From positions 1 through 64,000 of the forward strand of contig CACESO010000006.1 in NCBI GenBank assembly GCA_902562205.1: 64,000 nt of DNA, read 5' to 3'. The DNA comes from an uncultured Pelagibacteraceae bacterium. GTDB taxonomy: Bacteria > Pseudomonadota > Alphaproteobacteria > Pelagibacterales > Pelagibacteraceae. Numbering within the stretch: position 1 is the stretch's first letter; every line of letters begins with the position of its first letter. The notes below the pieces were generated by a model that saw only the letters and a program-made list of their open reading frames with translations, was not told the origin of the DNA and ran no database searches. Of the stretch, positions 11,630-25,290 are shown one piece after another. Position numbers and translations under genes: made by a program.

Positions 11630-12210
11630 TTAATTTTTTCCAAATATTTTCTAATATTTCTAATCGGCAGACCCATTATTGTATCAACGTCTCCCTTAAT
11701 TTCACTGAATAATTTTTTTCCTTCCCCTTCTATTTGATAAACATTGTAAGAATATAAGTTTTTATCAGAAATTTTACTTAAATATTCCTGAAGTTCTTCT
11801 TGAGTGAAGTTTTTCATTTTCATCTCAGCTTTTTCAGTATAATTCCAAATCATTTTTCCGTCTAAAGATATACAGACTGAACTTATAAGAAAATGAGATT
11901 TACCGTTTAGTGAACTTAAAATATTCGTGGCTTCTGTTCTATTTGTTGGTTTTGAGATAAGTTTGCCGTTTAAATCAATTACACTATCTGCGCCTAAAAC
12001 TATTTCTCCTATTTTTTTTTGACTAACCTTATTCGCTTTTAATTCAGCTAAATTTTTAGATATAAGTTCTGGTGTTGCTCCTTGATTTATTAAGGATTTC
12101 TTCACTTCATCTTCATCTAAATTGGAAGGTTCAACAGTACATTTTATATTGTTTTCATCCAATATTTTTTTTCTTACTTCGCTCTTTGATGCCAAAATTA
12201 TTGACTTCAT
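11626..12210 (-). CDS. Maf-like nucleotide pyrophosphatase
   Basis: IILASKSEVRKKIL; Maf fold. Confidence 0.93.
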   Translation of the reverse strand: MKSIILASKSEVRKKILDENNIKCTVEPSNLDEDEVKKSLINQGATPELISKNLAELKANKVSQKKIGEIVLGADSVIDLNGKLISKPTNRTEATNILSSLNGKSHFLISSVCISLDGKMIWNYTEKAEMKMKNFTQEELQEYLSKISDKNLYSYNVYQIEGEGKKLFSEIKGDVDTIMGLPIRNIRKYLEKIK

Positions 12211-13028
12211 TTTTGGTTAAAAATATCATGTATTTTAAGAACTGATGCAGCTGTTTCTTCTACGGATTTTCTTGTTACATCAATACTTGGCCATTTATAT
12301 TTCTGAAAAAGTTTCCGTGCATCTTCCATTTCTTTTTGTACAATATCTAAACTTGTGTATTCGGTACTTTCATTATCTTTAATAGATTGCATTCTATTTT
12401 TACGTAAATCTACCAGCCTGTCAGGTTCTGCTGTCAGTCCAACTACACATTTTTTTTGAGGATTCTCTTTTAGTATATTAGGAACTGAGTTTTCATTTAC
12501 CAGGGGTATATTTGATATTTTCATTCCTTTGTTTGCGAGATAAATCGAAGTTGGGGTCTTGCTTGTTCTGCTTACACCTAAAAGGATGATATCAGATTTT
12601 TCTATGTCCTCTACTGAATTTCCGTCATCGTGATTCATTGTAAATTGTATGGCTTCAATTTTTTTATAATATTCATCGTCCATGATATGTTGTCTGCTTG
12701 GAACATTAAGTGCTTTTTGATCTAAAAGTTTTGAAAAGCTAATTATTAAATCTCCTAATATTCCAAAGCACGGAATATTTTTTGAACTACACTCGTTTGA
12801 TAAATGTCTAGCTAATTTGTTATCAACTATTGTATATAATACTATAGCATTGCTGTTTTTTCCCGAGACTTCAAGGATTTTGGAAATTTGATTTTCTGTT
12901 CGTGTAAAAGAATAAAAGTGGGTTTTATACTTAAAATTTTTGAATTGAGCTTTAATTGCAAGGAATATTCTTTCTAATGTTTCTCCAGTTGAGTCAGAGA
13001 TAAGGTATATGTCATATGTATTAATCAT
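12207..13028 (-). CDS. Pyruvate, phosphate dikinase regulatory protein (PPSR/DUF299)
   Basis: DIYLISDSTGETLERI; GVSRTSKTPTSIYLA. Confidence 0.95.
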   Translation of the reverse strand: MINTYDIYLISDSTGETLERIFLAIKAQFKNFKYKTHFYSFTRTENQISKILEVSGKNSNAIVLYTIVDNKLARHLSNECSSKNIPCFGILGDLIISFSKLLDQKALNVPSRQHIMDDEYYKKIEAIQFTMNHDDGNSVEDIEKSDIILLGVSRTSKTPTSIYLANKGMKISNIPLVNENSVPNILKENPQKKCVVGLTAEPDRLVDLRKNRMQSIKDNESTEYTSLDIVQKEMEDARKLFQKYKWPSIDVTRKSVEETAASVLKIHDIFNQK

Positions 13029-13307
13029 GTATAAAAAGTATATCTATATGTATAAGTCGCTTCATAAAATTAACAAAAACTCTATTCAAAGATTTTAATG
13101 TATAAGTACTCATTTATATACATTTTAAACCATGTTGATAAATATTATACTTTTTAGATTAAAAAATGATAATTAATTAAAACTCTAAGAATTCTAAGGT
13201 AAATTTAATAAATCTTATGTGAAAAAACTGTTATAAACTTGTTAAAAAACATTAACTACCGTTATTAACAATACATATTACAAACAATATAGATAATATT
13301 TAATTAT
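13029..13307. other. Putative chromosomal replication origin (oriC)
   Basis: 279 bp very AT-rich non-coding gap between DUF299 (leftward) and hemE (rightward), the classical alphaproteobacterial oriC neighbourhood; near-consensus DnaA box TGTTGATAA at 13133-13141 and degenerate TTATTAACA at 13262-13270. Confidence 0.65.
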
Positions 13308-14315
13308 ATGAATACCCTTATACAAGATTGCATAAATAATAAATCTTCCAAGACACCTATATGGTTAATGAGACAGGCGGGAAGATATTTGCCAGAATTT
13401 AGATCTATAAGAGAAAAAAATCAAGATTTTATCAAACTATGTTTGAATACTAAATTATCATCTGAAATAACAATACAACCAATTGATAGATTTGATTTTG
13501 ATGCTGCTATAATTTTTTCTGACATTCTGTTAGTTCCATATGCACTTGGTCAACAAGTAAAATTTAAGAAAAATTTCGGACCTGATTTAAAAGAGGTTGA
13601 TTTAAATATATTAAACGATGTTAAAAAAGAAGACTTTCTTAAAAAACTAAATCCTGTATATGAGACAATTAAAGAAACGAGGAAAAAATTATCTATAAGT
13701 AATAAAGATACTATAGGTTTTGTTGGGGCTCCATGGACCCTCTTACTATACATGCTTAACAGAAAATCTCCCAAGGAGGGAAATTTTAATATTTTTCCAA
13801 AAGATAAATATATTAATAATATTTTGATTAAGTTAGATGAATTCTTAAAAATACATATTGAAGCCCAAATTAAAAGTGGTGCATCTATAATTCAGATCTT
13901 TGACAGCTGGGCCGGACTTCTTCCAGAAAAAGATCTAGATTATTTCGTTTATAAACCAATCAAAAGCTTAGTTGATTTTATTAGACAAAAAAAAACAATC
14001 TCAATTTGTTTCCCAAGAAACATCAATAGTTACAAAAAATTTGTAGATAATGTAAATCCTGACATAATCAGTATTGATTATAATGTTGATCCTTTAATTA
14101 TCAGAGATACTATTGATATTCCTGTACAAGGAGGTCTTGATCCAAAAATTTTACTTCAAAACAAAGAAATTGTGAGAAACGAGGTGACAAAATATTTAAA
14201 AACTTTCGATAAAAAAAGATATATATTCAACTTAGGACATGGAGTTTTACCGGAAACAAACCCGGATATCGTTAAATATTTAGTAGACGAAGTTAGGAGT
14301 TTTAATGGACAGTAA
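13308..14315 (+). CDS. hemE: Uroporphyrinogen decarboxylase
   Basis: TPIWLMRQAGRYLPEFR; FVGAPWTL. Confidence 0.98.
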   Translation: MNTLIQDCINNKSSKTPIWLMRQAGRYLPEFRSIREKNQDFIKLCLNTKLSSEITIQPIDRFDFDAAIIFSDILLVPYALGQQVKFKKNFGPDLKEVDLNILNDVKKEDFLKKLNPVYETIKETRKKLSISNKDTIGFVGAPWTLLLYMLNRKSPKEGNFNIFPKDKYINNILIKLDEFLKIHIEAQIKSGASIIQIFDSWAGLLPEKDLDYFVYKPIKSLVDFIRQKKTISICFPRNINSYKKFVDNVNPDIISIDYNVDPLIIRDTIDIPVQGGLDPKILLQNKEIVRNEVTKYLKTFDKKRYIFNLGHGVLPETNPDIVKYLVDEVRSFNGQ

Positions 14316-17067: not shown

Positions 17068-17122
17068 GAAATAGGACTTATTAATTCATTTAAATAAGCC
17101 TTTTATTTGATAATATTTGTTC

Positions 17123-18823
17123 ATGAATGACGCAAATTTGTCAAAATATAAAAAACTTTTTTATGAAAAAAGATATGGCGAAATTATTGTTGAATTAGAG
17201 TCATCTACTATAGAAAAAGACAGGTCCGCCGCCATTTTAAATTTGTTAGGTATTTGTAGAGCATCACAGAAAGGTAAAACCGATGAAGATGTTGATTATG
17301 CTTTGAAAGACTTTGAAGCAGCATTTAATAAAGATAATTTTGGCAAAATTTCATTAGATGCCTTATGTAATCACATTAAGCTTTGTGCTGAAATGGGTCG
17401 GAAAGAGTCTGATAAAGTAAATAATTTAATTGTATCTGAAAAAATGTACTCCGACGCTAGCAAAAAGTTCTCAAATAATGAAAGGTATTTAGCGCATGGT
17501 ATTGACTTATATAAATATCTTTTAAAACATAAAGAGAGAGTCTCAAAAATAGAAGAACTTTTAAAATTCAAAAAATTAAATAAGCTTTTTGGAACAGTTT
17601 ATATTACTTCTCAGATGTACTTGAGTAGTTGGCGACAAAAGGATTTTGGTGATTTCCAAAAAAAATTTTCGAAAGTTTTCAGTTCTTTTGATGCCAAAAA
17701 ATTATCCAAAATTGATACAAAAAAAGAAAATATTAATATTGGATTTTTATCTCCTGATTTTTGTAAATCTCATTCAATATCTTATTTCGTAAAAAATTTG
17801 ATAAAAGATTTAAAACAAACAAAATTTAAATCCTACGGATTATCTCTTTTGCGCGTTGAGGAACAAGATGAAACAACGCAGATTTTTAAAGATCTTTTTG
17901 ACGATTGGATTGATCTTGGAAATAAATCAGATCAAGACACTGTAAATATAATACAAAACTCAAACATTGATATTTTGGTTGATCTTGCCGGCCTATGGTC
18001 CTCAAACAGAATATCTATTTTTAATACAAGAATTTGTCCTCTACAGATATCATGGTTAGGATTTAATAATTCATCGGGCCTTAACGAAATAGATTTTATT
18101 TTAGCTGACAAAAATACTGTAAAAGAAGAAGAAACAGAATATGGACCAAAAATTTGCAAGCTTCCTCATATTTGGAATTCACATTGTGGTTTTGAAAATG
18201 AACGTCTATTTAACGAATTACCGTTTAATAGGAATAATTATTTTACCTTTGGGTCTTTGAACAATTTCATGAAAATAAATGATGAAGTTCTTGATGTTTG
18301 GATAAAGATATTAAAAAAAGTTAAAAACTCAAAAATAATCCTTAAATCATCTTTATATATTTGTGAAGATGTAATTAAAAAAAGATTTGAAAAAGAGGGG
18401 CTATCAAACTCACTTGAAATATTGAAAAAAACTAAAAGAAATGATTTTTTGTCCCATTTAAACACTTATAACAAGATAGACCTATGTTTAGACACATTCC
18501 CATTTAATGGAGTTACCACAACATTTGAAGCTTTGTGGAAAAACGTTCCTGTGCTAACAAAAAAAGGATATAATTTTAATTCAAGATGTGGTGAAAGCAT
18601 TTTAAAAAATGCGAATTTAAGTAATTTTGTTGCAGTTACTGACGAAGATTATATAGAAAAAGCATCTTATTACGCATCAAATACTAGTGTATTAGATACC
18701 ATTAGAAAAGATCTTTTCAATCGACTTTATCAAACACCTTTATTTGATACTAAACAGTTTACTAATGATTTTTGTCGGTCCCTTAATCAAATGATAATAG
18801 AAATAAATAAAAATTATAAATAA
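17123..18823 (+). CDS. GT41 (O-GlcNAc transferase/SPINDLY-like) glycosyltransferase
   Basis: Catalytic motifs DILVDLAG, CPLQISWLGFNNSSGLNEIDFILAD, DLCLDTFPFNGVTTTFEALWKNVPVLTKKG; start set to first ATG. Confidence 0.88.
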   Translation: MNDANLSKYKKLFYEKRYGEIIVELESSTIEKDRSAAILNLLGICRASQKGKTDEDVDYALKDFEAAFNKDNFGKISLDALCNHIKLCAEMGRKESDKVNNLIVSEKMYSDASKKFSNNERYLAHGIDLYKYLLKHKERVSKIEELLKFKKLNKLFGTVYITSQMYLSSWRQKDFGDFQKKFSKVFSSFDAKKLSKIDTKKENINIGFLSPDFCKSHSISYFVKNLIKDLKQTKFKSYGLSLLRVEEQDETTQIFKDLFDDWIDLGNKSDQDTVNIIQNSNIDILVDLAGLWSSNRISIFNTRICPLQISWLGFNNSSGLNEIDFILADKNTVKEEETEYGPKICKLPHIWNSHCGFENERLFNELPFNRNNYFTFGSLNNFMKINDEVLDVWIKILKKVKNSKIILKSSLYICEDVIKKRFEKEGLSNSLEILKKTKRNDFLSHLNTYNKIDLCLDTFPFNGVTTTFEALWKNVPVLTKKGYNFNSRCGESILKNANLSNFVAVTDEDYIEKASYYASNTSVLDTIRKDLFNRLYQTPLFDTKQFTNDFCRSLNQMIIEINKNYK

Positions 18824-19647
18824 CCTAGCTCTATCATTTCTTTATGAAAAAGTTTTTCAATTTTTTTTATAATATTTACTGGAACTTCATCTTTCCACGT
18901 ACCAATTTTTCCACTTCTAAAAAAAAGAGCACCCTTACCCTTTTCTTTAAATCCTTCATTTTTTTCCATTTTTTGTAACTCATTGAACCGAGTTTGTTTT
19001 AGAGCTTTTTTTAGTTTATCCATATTAAACTCAGTTCCATCAATTTCCTTTAAATAATTTATTACTTTTGTAAAAGTATTGAGTTCATTTAAGATCATAT
19101 CTTCATATTTAAGAATTAGGACTTTACAAGAATTATAATTTTTCCAGGAATTATAATGTTCTGACCATGTGCCCATGAGAGTTTTTTCGTAACTTTTGCC
19201 ACCTGAGGATGGATATTCATAACTATAAGATGAGGATAAATGAACAAAAGTTTTCTCGTAGTCAGAGCCTAAGTGATGAGAATAAGATACCAAAACATCT
19301 CTTGGATCTCTAACTAGGTAAATTGCTCCAATAGTATTTTTAGATGATGTAAATTTATAAGAGCCCACTGTACACATTGCATTATGTGTTTTAACAAAGT
19401 TTGTTTGTTTGTTTAAATTTATATAGTCTTGCAAAGTTTCCCAATTTTTTACTATCTCTTCAAACTTATAATAATCCACTTTAAGATGATCCAATATTAC
19501 TTGATCAGGAAATCCTTGAGCTTTAAAGTTATCTAGAATTGAGCTCTCAAGGCTCAGTTTTTCATCGGATTTAAGGAAATAACTTTTTAAAAACATACGC
19601 AACCAAGTGTTTCCACTCTTTGGATATGATGCTAACCAAATGATCAT
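18814..19647 (-). CDS. PAPS-dependent sulfotransferase family protein
   Basis: WLASYPKSGNTWLRMFLKSY 5'-PSB motif, YLVRDPRDVLVSYSHH 3'-PB motif, FFRSGKIGTWKDE; start trimmed from 19857. Confidence 0.88.
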   Translation of the reverse strand: MIIWLASYPKSGNTWLRMFLKSYFLKSDEKLSLESSILDNFKAQGFPDQVILDHLKVDYYKFEEIVKNWETLQDYINLNKQTNFVKTHNAMCTVGSYKFTSSKNTIGAIYLVRDPRDVLVSYSHHLGSDYEKTFVHLSSSYSYEYPSSGGKSYEKTLMGTWSEHYNSWKNYNSCKVLILKYEDMILNELNTFTKVINYLKEIDGTEFNMDKLKKALKQTRFNELQKMEKNEGFKEKGKGALFFRSGKIGTWKDEVPVNIIKKIEKLFHKEMIELGYL

Positions 19648-19696
19648 AGTATATTTTAATGATATCCTTATATTAAATTCAATATATAATATATTT

Positions 19697-21028
19697 ATGA
19701 CAATTTGTGCCCTATCTACAGGAATAGGGGCTTCCGGAGTTGCTATAATTAGAATTTCTGGCCCTGATACAAGTTTCCTTCTTAAAGCATTAACAAACAA
19801 GGTGATGCCGAAGCCTAGAGAGGCAACTCTTCTAGAATTAAACAATATCAACAACAATAGACCAATAGATCAAGGCATAGTTTTGTGGTTCCCTGGTCCA
19901 AAAAGCTATACAGGCGAGGATATGGCAGAATTACATGTTCATGGAAGCAAAGCAGTAGTCAAAGAACTTCAAGAAACACTTTTAAGCACAAAAAAATGCA
20001 GATTAGCTGAACCAGGAGAATTTACAAAGCTTGCTTTTTTAAATGGGAAAATAAATCTTCTTCAAGCTGAAGCCATAGGAGATTTAATAGCAGCAGAAAC
20101 TGAAATTCAAATGGAACAAGCTCAAAATATTCTAAAAGGTAAATCTTTTTTAAAATTTAATAAACTTAGAGAGAATTTAATTAAAGTTTTATCAAAAATT
20201 GAGGCAAAGATTGACTTTCCAGATGAAGATTTACCCTCCGATGTTCTTGATGATGTCAAAAGAGATATTTCTAATATTGAGGATGAAATTAAAAAAATAT
20301 TAAATAGTTATGAAGTTGGAGAGAGAATAAGAACAGGTTATAAAATCGCAATTGTCGGTCCGCCAAACTCTGGTAAATCAACATTAATGAATTATTTAAG
20401 CAAAAGAAATGTTGCAATAGTATCTGATGTTGCAGGAACTACTCGAGATGTATTGCAAACAAATTTAAATTTTTATGGTTACCCGGTTATAATTTCAGAC
20501 ACTGCAGGCATAAGAGACTCAAAAGATGTAATCGAAAAAGAAGGAATTAAGCTTGCTTTTGAAAAAGCAGAGGAAGCTGATCTTAGAATAGTTGTTATAG
20601 AGCCAAAAAATGTTGATTTTTATGGCTTTTTAAATGATCTATTTAATAAGAACACGATCTTAGTAATTAACAAATCTGACCTTAATAAATTTGATGTGAA
20701 AGAGAGACTTAATAAATATAAACCAATTTCTGTGTCTTTTCTTAAAGAAAAAAACATTGATGAATTATTAGATCGTATTAAAAAAAATTTAATCACTGAT
20801 ATGAAATTTAGTGATGATGTTTTTGTAACTAGAGAGAGACATAGAAATAATTTAAAAGAGTGTTTAATAAACTTGCAAAACTTTAAAGACAAAACTGAGT
20901 CTTTAGATTTTGATAAAGGTGCGGAAGATCTTAGACTAGCACAAGTTAGTTTAGGTAAAATTGTTGGAAAAGTCGATGTAGAGGCCATATTAGGTAGTAT
21001 TTTCAACGATTTTTGTATTGGTAAATAA
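19697..21028 (+). CDS. mnmE: tRNA modification GTPase MnmE
   Basis: MTICALSTGIGASGVAIIRISGP; GPPNSGKSTLMN; terminal CIGK; start trimmed from 19607. Confidence 0.98.
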   Translation: MTICALSTGIGASGVAIIRISGPDTSFLLKALTNKVMPKPREATLLELNNINNNRPIDQGIVLWFPGPKSYTGEDMAELHVHGSKAVVKELQETLLSTKKCRLAEPGEFTKLAFLNGKINLLQAEAIGDLIAAETEIQMEQAQNILKGKSFLKFNKLRENLIKVLSKIEAKIDFPDEDLPSDVLDDVKRDISNIEDEIKKILNSYEVGERIRTGYKIAIVGPPNSGKSTLMNYLSKRNVAIVSDVAGTTRDVLQTNLNFYGYPVIISDTAGIRDSKDVIEKEGIKLAFEKAEEADLRIVVIEPKNVDFYGFLNDLFNKNTILVINKSDLNKFDVKERLNKYKPISVSFLKEKNIDELLDRIKKNLITDMKFSDDVFVTRERHRNNLKECLINLQNFKDKTESLDFDKGAEDLRLAQVSLGKIVGKVDVEAILGSIFNDFCIGK

Positions 21029-21144: not shown

Positions 21145-23016
21145 ATGAAAAATAATTTTTCATTTGATGTTGTTGTAATTGGCGGTGGTCACGCTGGTTG
21201 TGAAGCAGCTGCTGCATCTGCTCGAATGGGTGTTACAACTGCATTGTTTACGAACGACACTAATACTATAGGCGAGATGTCTTGTAACCCAGCAATCGGT
21301 GGGCTAGGTAAAGGGCATTTAGTAAGAGAAATAGATGCTTTAGATGGTGTTATGGGAGATATAGCTGATAAGTCTGGCATTCAATTTAGATTATTAAATA
21401 GAAGCAGAGGACCAGCAGTGCAAGGACTACGAACTCAAAGTGATAGGTCTATTTATAAAAAAGAAATGCAGTCAAAACTTCTAAACTATTGTAATTTAAG
21501 CATATTTTCGATATCGATTAATCAATTTATAATTGAAAATAATGAGATAAAAGGTCTCAAGGCAGTAGATGGTACTGAAATCAAATGTTCTAAGGTAATT
21601 CTGACAACTGGCACTTTTTTAAATGGTTTGATACATATAGGTGATAAAAGAACACCAGCTGGTAGGTATGATGAAAAACCGACGTTAGGTTTATCGGATC
21701 AATTAAGAAAATATGATTTTAAATTAGGTAGACTAAAGACCGGAACCCCTCCAAGGTTAGATGGCACAACAATCAATTATGATAATCTTGAACGACAAGA
21801 TGCAGATAAAGATATTTCTTTTTTTTCTTTCTTAACTAAGAAAGTTCATAACGATCAAATTTCATGTAGCATGACTTACACAAATAAAAAAGTTCATGAC
21901 ATTATTTCTGAAAATTTAAAAAAGAGTGCAATGTATTCTGGAAGTATTCAGGGTGTTGGTCCTAGATACTGTCCATCTATAGAAGATAAAATTTATAAAT
22001 TTAAAGATAAGACTAGACATCAGATCTTTTTAGAACCTGAAGGCCTTAACGATAATACAGTGTATCCAAATGGTATTTCTACATCTCTTCCAGAAGAGAT
22101 ACAGTACAAAATATGTCATAATATCAATGGTTTAGAAGAGGTTAAAATTATAAGGCCTGGATATGCAATAGAATACGATTATGTTGACCCTAGAGAGCTT
22201 TTCTCAACCTTAGAGACTAAGAAGATTAAAAATTTCTATTTAGCAGGACAAATAAATGGAACAACAGGTTATGAAGAAGCTGCAGCACAAGGATTGATTG
22301 CCGGGGCCAATGCAGCGTTGTCGACTCAAAATAGAGAACCATTAATTTTAGATAGATCTCAAGCTTATATCGGTGTCATGATAGATGACTTAGTAACCAA
22401 AGGAGTCGCTGAGCCTTATAGGATGTTCACTTCAAGAGCCGAATACAGATTAACCCTTAGATCTGACAATGCTGATTTAAGATTAACCCAAATAGGAATA
22501 AGTATTGGCTTAGTTTCAAAAGAAAGAGCTAAAGTTTTTAATTTTAAAAGTAAAAATTTAAAGAATATTTCTAGCAAAATGGATGAATTAAAAATCTCAC
22601 CCTCAAAGGTATCTAAATTCGGTGTAAAAATAGCAAAAGACGGTATTTTAAGGACTGCTAGCAACATACTTGCTCAAAAAGGTGTGACTATGGACAAAAT
22701 TAGGGAAATTTGGCCTGATTTGACTTTTGTTTCTAAGGATATAGATGAACAATTGGAGACGAATGCCCATTACAGGGGTTATCTAAAGAAGCAAAATGCT
22801 GATATATTAGCTTTTAAAAGAGATGAAAATCTTAAAATCCCAGACAACATTAATTATGATAGTTTTTCTGGGTTTTCAAACGAGGTTAAGTCAAAATTCA
22901 AGCAAATTAAGCCAAAAACAATGGGTCAAGCACTCAGAATTGACGGTATAACCCCAGCGGCAGTATTTATTCTGTTGTCACATCTTAAAAGAAAGTCTAT
23001 TAAGAAGATAGCTTGA
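21145..23016 (+). CDS. mnmG: tRNA uridine-5-carboxymethylaminomethyl modification enzyme MnmG
   Basis: [41 protein letters not shown]. Confidence 0.99.
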
Positions 23017-23651
23017 TAGATTCGCATAAAATTAATTACTCAAAACTAGACACTTTGAATGTTTCACGTGAAACATTTCTTGAATTAGATGAATTTAAAG
23101 AAATGATTTTGGATGAAAACAAAAAAATAAATTTAATTAGCCAACATACTGAGGAATTAGCCAGAGATAGACATATAATTGACAGTGCACAAATCATTGA
23201 TTTAATTGATGAAAATTACCTATCTTGCACTGATTTAGGATCCGGCTCAGGTTTACCTGGTTTAGTTCTAGCCATAATTAAAAAAAAACAAAAATCGAAG
23301 ATGAAATTTTTCCTTTACGAAAAAAGTTTTAAAAAAAGCAATTTTTTAAAAAAAGTTATTAATAAATTCGAACTTAACGCTGAAGTAATAAATCAGAATA
23401 TATTTGATCAAAAAAAATTAAATTCTGATTTGATTGTAGCAAGAGCATTTAAACCTTTGCCGGTTATTTTAGATTTAGTAACGAAAAACTTTAATGATTT
23501 TAAAGACATCATTTTGTTTTTAGGAAAAACTGGAAAGAGTTCAATTGAACAATGTTTACAAAATTGGGATTTAGAATTTGTAGAGAAAAAAAGCGTAACA
23601 GAAAAAGACTCAATCATAATAAAAATAAATAAAGTGAGTAAAAAAAAATGA
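23013..23651 (+). CDS. rsmG: 16S rRNA (guanine-N7) methyltransferase RsmG
   Basis: TTG start overlapping mnmG stop; [26 protein letters not shown]-terminus. Confidence 0.95.
23058..23077. promoter_or_regulatory. parS: parS centromere site
   Basis: AATGTTTCACGTGAAACATT, 20-bp perfect palindrome containing canonical TGTTTCACGTGAAACA, within rsmG, ~0.6 kb upstream of parA. Confidence 0.93.
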
Positions 23652-24448
23652 AAGAAAAAATTATTTCAGTCATTAATCAAAAGGGCGGTGTTGGGAAAAC
23701 GACGACCGTAATTAATTTAGCGGCAGGACTTAGTTTAAATGGAAAAAAAATATTAGTTATAGATTTGGACCCACAAGGAAATGCAACAACAGGATTAGGT
23801 TTGTCTAATGTATCAGATACTAGCAAATCAATTTATGGTGTCTTGAATGGAAAAGAGGAGATTCAAAGTTCAATTCAGAAGACTAACTTTCAAAATTTGG
23901 ATATCGTAACATCAAATGTAGATTTATCTGGTTTGGAGGTTGAAACCGCAGATGACGAAAATAGAGCATATCTTTTAAAGACTAAATTAACCGCATATTT
24001 AAACAATTCTAGTCACTCATACGACTACGTCTTGATTGATTGTCCGCCTTCTTTGAGTTTATTAACCGTGATGGCTTTGGTGGCATCAGACTCATTAGTT
24101 GTGCCTTTACAGACAGAATTTTTTGCTCTTGAAGGGATAACTCAGCTGATTAAAACTATAGATCGTATTAAGGTCGGTCTTAATCCAAACTTATTTGTAA
24201 GAGGAATTTTATTAACGATGTATGACAAAAGAAACAGACTGTCTGCGCAAGTTGAAACAGATGCAAGAAATTATTTTAAAGACAAAGTTTATCAAACTGT
24301 AGTCCCCAGAAATGTACGTTTATCAGAAGCACCTTCACATGGGGTTCCAGTTTTAATATATGACAAACAATGTCCAGGAAGTAAATCATATATCAAATTC
24401 ACAGAAGAGTTTTTGGCACAAGAATCGAGTTTTGTAACGGCAGCATGA
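23648..24448 (+). CDS. parA: Chromosome partitioning ATPase ParA
   Basis: ISVINQKGGVGKTTTVINLAAGL deviant Walker A. Confidence 0.98.
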   Translation: MKEKIISVINQKGGVGKTTTVINLAAGLSLNGKKILVIDLDPQGNATTGLGLSNVSDTSKSIYGVLNGKEEIQSSIQKTNFQNLDIVTSNVDLSGLEVETADDENRAYLLKTKLTAYLNNSSHSYDYVLIDCPPSLSLLTVMALVASDSLVVPLQTEFFALEGITQLIKTIDRIKVGLNPNLFVRGILLTMYDKRNRLSAQVETDARNYFKDKVYQTVVPRNVRLSEAPSHGVPVLIYDKQCPGSKSYIKFTEEFLAQESSFVTAA

Positions 24449-25290
24449 GCAGTATTTTTAAAAACAAAAAAGGATTAGGAAGAGGATTATCATCTTTAAT
24501 AGGAGATACAAAAACAGTTTCAAAAAACAACAAAATTTCAGTTAGTGATTTAATAAGAAATAGGTATCAACCAAGAAAAACATTCGATGAAGAAAGCTTA
24601 GAAGAGTTAACTAATTCAATTAAATCCAGAGGTATCATTCAGCCAATTATTGCAAGGCAATCAAGTGGAAGTAAATATGAGATAATAGCGGGAGAGAGAA
24701 GGTGGTTGGCAGCTCAAAGAGCAGGTTTGCATGAGGTACCAGTAGTAGTTGTTGATGCTGATGATAAAAAGGCGCTTGAGTTTGGTATTGTTGAGAATGT
24801 TCAAAGACATGACTTAAATTCAATTGAGGAAGCAGAAGGTTATAAAAGGTTGATTGATGAGTTTAGTTATGATCAAGAACAGGTTGCTAAATTTATAGGA
24901 AAAAGCAGAAGTCACATCACTAATAGTTTGAGACTATTAACATTATCAAGTTATATAACTGATTTGATAAAAACTAATAAGATTACCCCAGGTCATGCCA
25001 AAATTTTAGTTGGTCTCGGTAATTCTGATCAAATTGCAAAAAAAATAGTAAAAAAAAATCTTTCTGTAAGGCAAACGGAAAATCTTGTAAGATTTTACAA
25101 ATCTCCAACTAAGTCAATTAAGACATCAAAGGACCCAAATATTAAAAAAATTGAAAACGATCTTATGGAAAAAATAGGGCTCAAAACCCAAATAACAAAC
25201 AAGAAAAACAATAAAGGGTCTTTGACTTTTAATTATAGAGATTTAGATCAATTAAATCATCTCATAGAAATTATCAAAAAATATTATTAA
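24445..25290 (+). CDS. parB: Chromosome partitioning protein ParB
   Basis: KGLGRGLSSLIG; GERRWLAAQRAGL. Confidence 0.98.
   Translation: MSSIFKNKKGLGRGLSSLIGDTKTVSKNNKISVSDLIRNRYQPRKTFDEESLEELTNSIKSRGIIQPIIARQSSGSKYEIIAGERRWLAAQRAGLHEVPVVVVDADDKKALEFGIVENVQRHDLNSIEEAEGYKRLIDEFSYDQEQVAKFIGKSRSHITNSLRLLTLSSYITDLIKTNKITPGHAKILVGLGNSDQIAKKIVKKNLSVRQTENLVRFYKSPTKSIKTSKDPNIKKIENDLMEKIGLKTQITNKKNNKGSLTFNYRDLDQLNHLIEIIKKYY

Follow-up and report, generated by a model that had tools for sequence, protein, structure and literature searches.

The gap between the genes for PPSR and HemE is very probably the chromosomal oriC of a SAR11 bacterium, a predicted orthologue of the origin that other alphaproteobacteria carry between hemE and COG1806. 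In the window, as we call the whole 64,000-nt stretch of Pelagibacteraceae DNA analysed here, the gap occupies positions 13029-13307; its location, its conservation among relatives, its enrichment in DnaA-box-like sites, the triplet pattern beside hemE, the strand skew and the neighbouring parS site were all computed directly. An initial annotation of the window had placed a putative oriC between DUF299/PPSR and hemE, and the proposal agrees with the skew of a closed SAR11 chromosome, with the conservation of the boxes and with the presence of parAB and parS.

Genomic setting

At 279 bp, the gap is the longest between listed open reading frames in the window (the runner-up measures 172 bp), and its AT content of 82.4%, against a window mean of 70.0%, places it in the top 0.07% of 279-bp segments. 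The initial description of this region as the longest non-coding gap, extremely AT-rich and lying where gene direction flips outward, was thus accurate on each count: PPSR and hemE are divergently oriented, and the direction of transcription switches outward between them (Table 1). The local gene order is dnaQ-coaE-aroE-maf-PPSR on one side of the gap and hemE-hemH-hemJ-rho ... mnmE-mnmG-rsmG-parA-parB-holA on the other. Between rho and mnmE (17117-19857), within this otherwise origin-linked block, lie genes for a glycosyltransferase-41 protein of 568 aa and, on the minus strand, a sulfotransferase. Searches of the window for tRNA genes and Rfam families returned no match. The source genome comprises 1.03 Mb in 26 contigs and is about 89% complete, and its dnaA gene is on a different contig from the window.

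Table 1. Features of the predicted origin region and of the partition locus in the window
Feature	Position	Strand	Evidence
oriC (putative)	13029..13307		AT-rich gap separating PPSR from hemE; length and AT content at 70 loci; skew change point in G018
PPSR (PF03618, DUF299, COG1806; Kinase-PPPase)	12207..13028	-	Pfam 2.2e-89; flanking gene
hemE (PF01208, URO-D)	13308..14315	+	Pfam 1.5e-83; flanking gene
DnaA-box-like site TTATATACA	13114..13122	+	Highest weighted column identity (0.88) among 9-mers in the gap
DnaA-box-like site TTATCAACA (TGTTGATAA on +)	13133..13141	-	1 mismatch to TTATCCACA
Weaker box-like repeats GTGAAAAAAC, TGTTATAAA, TGTTAAAAA	13219..13248	-	Conserved block, 0.74 vs 0.64 for the whole gap; direct repeat D3
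hemE-proximal DnaA box TTATTAACA	13262..13270	+	2 mismatches to TTATCCACA; weighted column identity 0.87
DnaA-trio-like triplets ATA TTA CAA ACA ATA	13275..13289	+	TA-TA lags; NTA runs; window copy degenerate
AT-rich tract reaching the hemE start	13290..13307		Sequence; inferred from box-trio-AT order
parS TGTTTCACGTGAAACA, perfect palindrome	23060..23075		Exact match; 9.8 kb from the gap
parA	23648..24448	+	AAA_31/ParA-type ATPase
parB	24445..25290	+	ParB_N, HTH_ParB and ParB_C domains

DnaA boxes of the gap

Three sites matching TTATNNACA lie in the window's gap, where about 0.3 would be expected from dinucleotide shuffles. Two of them had been recognized in the initial annotation, as a one-mismatch box at 13133-13141 and a degenerate box at 13262-13270, and both stand as described (the former on the minus strand); the third, TTATATACA at 13114-13122 on the plus strand, was absent from it. 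The canonical box TTATCCACA occurs nowhere in the 64,000 nt of the window and in none of the relatives' gaps, which hold on average 2.63 TTATNNACA sites vs 0.32 (sd 0.11) in dinucleotide shuffles, 2.07 copies of TTATNAACA vs 0.14, and 1.09 copies of TTATTAACA vs 0.06. The gap is also the only place in the window where two TTATN[A/C]ACA sites fall within 300 bp, and on a closed SAR11 chromosome analysed in full (G018; 1,308,759 bp) the hemE/PPSR gap forms the densest cluster of such sites, the second-ranked cluster lying inside an open reading frame. Global avoidance of boxes was considered as a cause of this pattern and rejected, the 16 TTATNNACA words occurring mostly at about Markov expectation across G018, with a few under- or over-represented.

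The arrangement is conserved. At 70 loci of relatives, with HemE identity ranging down to 50%, the gap is 267-285 bp long and 81-88% AT. An alignment across relatives, one of the checks proposed initially, was made from 66 distinct gaps (effective number 23) and scored by weighted column identity; the box positions proved to be the best-conserved part of the gap, the most conserved 9-mers being the boxes at 13114 (0.88) and 13262 (0.87), vs 0.64 gap-wide. Site 13114-13122 reads TTATTAACA or TTATAAACA in many relatives, position 13262-13270 reads TTATTAACA or TTATTCACA in half of the weighted relatives, and a TTATN[A/C]ACA box stands at the 13133-13141 position in 36% of them. The weaker repeats at 13219-13248 are possibly low-affinity DnaA sites.

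On the protein side, domain IV of DnaA from the window's genome could be aligned with the E. coli DnaA of PDB 1j1v, the DnaA-box-bound domain IV, and the motifs RRSR, LPEIG and RDHTT are kept; the alignment gave no sign of a new DNA specificity in this domain, and the DNA-binding domain looks canonical. The change at box positions 5-6 may represent AT drift toward lower-affinity boxes. A shortage of canonical boxes had been taken initially to suggest a 'minimal or divergent' DnaA architecture. Divergence is borne out, in that the boxes depart from the canonical form at positions 5-6 and share the core TTATNNACA, but the rest needs revision: the gap holds a conserved, enriched set of sites rather than a mere shortage, and the DnaA domain looks canonical.

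A candidate unwinding element beside hemE

In many relatives the triplets ATA CTA NTA ATA are found at the position of 13275-13289, a short distance 3' of the hemE-proximal box. Box, short spacer, triplets and AT tract follow one another in the same order and in the same relative orientation as in the basal unwinding system (BUS) described for Bacillus subtilis and other bacteria (PMC6669920, PMC8287927), which consists of a DnaA box, a spacer and DnaA-trios. In the window, TTATTAACA at 13262-13270 has no more than two mismatches to TTATCCACA and is separated from the triplets by a 4-bp spacer, inside the 16 bp that the BUS allows for its box, and two strict NTA triplets in register (ATA TTA) precede CAA ACA ATA.

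The BUS is defined by at least three successive 3'-NAN-5' triplets. Since 51% of shuffles pass the published NTN rule, which is thus too loose for DNA so rich in AT, we tightened it to NTA: a box of no more than two mismatches, with three or more NTA triplets after it at a distance of up to 16 bp, is found in 59% of gaps vs 6% of shuffles. TA dinucleotides 3' of the hemE-proximal box recur at lags of 3, 6, 9 and 12 (2.81, 2.64, 2.25 and 1.53, vs about 0.76, 0.67, 0.59 and 0.49 in shuffles), and the last 60 nt are strongly strand-biased (CTA 131 vs TAG 26, well above controls). Most of 20 other alphaproteobacterial genomes have TTATCCACA or one-mismatch boxes, and most have CTA/CTAC-rich triplets about 55-150 bp from hemE, so that the SAR11 element appears to be an AT-shifted version of one shared across the class.

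We weighed two ways in which the origin might open. That the gap is oriC while its triplets are no DnaA-trio element, melting being achieved by AT-richness and DnaA binding alone, fits the degenerate triplets of the window and a gap more than 80% AT, in which loose trio rules are satisfied by chance, as the NTN result illustrates; the period-3 TA lags, the strict NTA test and the CTA bias, all well above controls, together with CTA/CTAC-rich triplets at the same position in the majority of the other alphaproteobacterial genomes examined, make it unlikely. Trio-based melting within oriC is the reading we consider likely, and from the box-trio-AT order the tract at 13290-13307 would probably be the first region to melt.

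Origin or promoter region

The hemE gene adjoins PPSR in all 20 of the alphaproteobacterial genomes with a PPSR flank that were examined. In two members of another genus of Pelagibacteraceae (G007, locus L200, and G015, locus L206), hemE-hemH-hemJ are missing between PPSR and rho, and the PPSR-rho gap retains TTATAAACA followed by CTA-type triplets; because box and triplets are kept there without hemE, the conserved block belongs with the origin and not with hemE expression. Outside this locus, the two genomes yielded no more than a distant HemE homologue (34-35%). In two further genomes, G028 (L204, contig positions 358203-359182) and G068, one of them closed, hemE is seemingly broken by stops or frameshifts, for which sequencing error is a possible cause.

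The genomes G007 and G015, without hemE at this locus, bear on whether the gap is merely the divergent promoter or regulatory region of PPSR and hemE, with the origin elsewhere nearby. Divergent genes need promoters, which would likewise be AT-rich and conserved, and the resolution of skew is tens of kb in some genomes; but the box-plus-triplet block stays beside PPSR in G007 and G015, the conserved 9-mers of the gap are DnaA-box-like, and the box cluster there is unsurpassed in the entire G018 chromosome, all of which renders a promoter-only function very improbable.

Position on the chromosome and partition locus

In G018 the gap lies at 335,453-335,745 and dnaA at 399 kb. Change points exceeding every block shuffle were found at 336,237 for TA skew and 325,208 for GC skew at 4-fold sites, and at 308,154 for gene strand, whose opposite end at 997,475 agrees with the antipode of the gap (about 990 kb); the raw cumulative GC minimum is at 307,638. 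Fixing the terminus at 990 kb gives a joint 4-fold-site skew estimate of 335,638 (bootstrap 5-95%, 312-356 kb), and none of the 1000 bootstrap replicates comes closer than 10 kb to dnaA. The proposal accordingly survives the test suggested in the initial annotation, namely a skew minimum elsewhere, for instance near dnaA. When the arms are forced to be equal, the GC skew of G018 peaks 62 kb off the gap.

Equal-arm scans of three partly sampled genomes (G003, G030 and G007) gave TA-skew and gene-strand optima lying within about -35 to +63 kb of the gap, and 4-fold GC skew in the three lent the gap no support. Free two-change-point fits to these genomes were discarded: they collapsed on single outlier genes and did no better than shuffles. 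A switch in strand composition at the gap is thus seen at fine scale in G018 only and is coarse or mixed in the other three, for which reason fine placement rests on G018. Raw GC skew within the window was also rejected as an origin marker, as it tracks gene direction, with a minimum near 47 kb, and is uninformative.

The initial remark that parAB lies nearby is confirmed, and a single parS accompanies the two genes (Table 1). An exact parS occurs in 28 of 58 genomes of the family, exactly one in each, and the reversed control in none; its distance from the gap is 7-20 kb in comparable closed genomes. In the window, parS lies within the first part of the rsmG open reading frame as annotated (23013-23651), and since the GidB profile starts at residue 25, the true rsmG start may lie downstream of parS. 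The distance between dnaA and the gap is strikingly constant, at about 61-74 kb, in the closed genomes G003, G005, G007, G012, G015, G018, G024, G028, G030, G038, G044 and G148.

An origin located at dnaA or close to it, the arrangement seen in many bacteria, is scarcely credible: the equal-arm TA-skew optimum of G030 (668 kb) does fall beside dnaA (667 kb), but the G018 bootstraps avoid dnaA, the TTATN[A/C]ACA scan of that chromosome detected no notable box cluster in its vicinity, and in closed genomes parS keeps much closer to the hemE gap than dnaA does.

Discussion

Experiments have established an origin between hemE and COG1806 in Caulobacter, and one has been inferred for Rickettsia and its relatives (PMC1914354), in agreement with the initial statement that alphaproteobacterial origins lie beside hemE. 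The SAR11 gap resembles Caulobacter crescentus Cori and the Rickettsia prowazekii origin in its flanking gene pair, its AT-richness and its internal DnaA-box-like sites; it differs in being about 280 bp long, whereas those origins exceed 400 bp, in having no canonical TTATCCACA, and in showing no enrichment of CtrA sites. CtrA sites are frequent in hemE-COG1806 origins, occurring in many and missing in some, and are not strictly defining; they are not expected in the SAR11 gap because Pelagibacter has been reported to be without ctrA (PMC2877005). The relatives' gaps contain on average 0.36 TTAA-N7-TTAA sites vs 0.27 expected (sd 0.10) and 0.12 IHF sites (WATCAANNNNTTR) vs 0.08 expected, with no enrichment found for either, and GANTC sites are likewise not enriched in them; HU/IHF-family proteins number three per genome.

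Compared with the BUS, the SAR11 element has an AT-shifted box (TTATTAACA/TTATTCACA) and triplets of the form ATA/CTA, degenerate in the window copy, and it adjoins hemE, not dnaA-dnaN. The partition locus is like other origin-proximal parABS systems of alphaproteobacteria in that parS lies a few kb from the origin, beside parA-parB, and unlike them in that there is one exact parS per SAR11 genome that has any. We offer tentatively, and with rather more reserve than the placement of the origin itself, the suggestion that SAR11 origins might use a shifted DnaA-box code, TTATNAACA replacing TTATNCACA, with the base-contact motifs of DnaA unchanged and without CtrA control, in an origin of about 280 bp built of DnaA boxes plus trios.

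From the arrangement of the gap we infer a course of DnaA binding, melting and helicase loading there. DnaA, whose gene lies some 61-74 kb off in closed relatives, would bind TTATNNACA-type boxes across the gap; an ATP-DnaA filament starting from the box at 13262-13270 on the plus strand would extend over the triplets at 13275-13289 on one strand, stretching that strand and melting the AT-rich tract beside hemE, whereupon DnaB could be loaded; and ParB bound to parS some 10 kb away would segregate the new origins.

A literature search covering few subscription journals found no published mapping of a SAR11 origin. The type of locus is already known from Caulobacter and Rickettsia, and the SAR11 case is useful rather than surprising. 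SAR11 bacteria rank with the ocean's most abundant cells, and a defined origin, terminus and parS would allow their growth rate to be read from sequencing depth as a peak-to-trough ratio. Origin finders that count boxes and seek TTATCCACA could miss the SAR11 origin, the canonical boxes being lost. The gap provides a concrete, testable short origin, and the relatives that have no hemE beside PPSR separate the origin part of the region from its promoter part.
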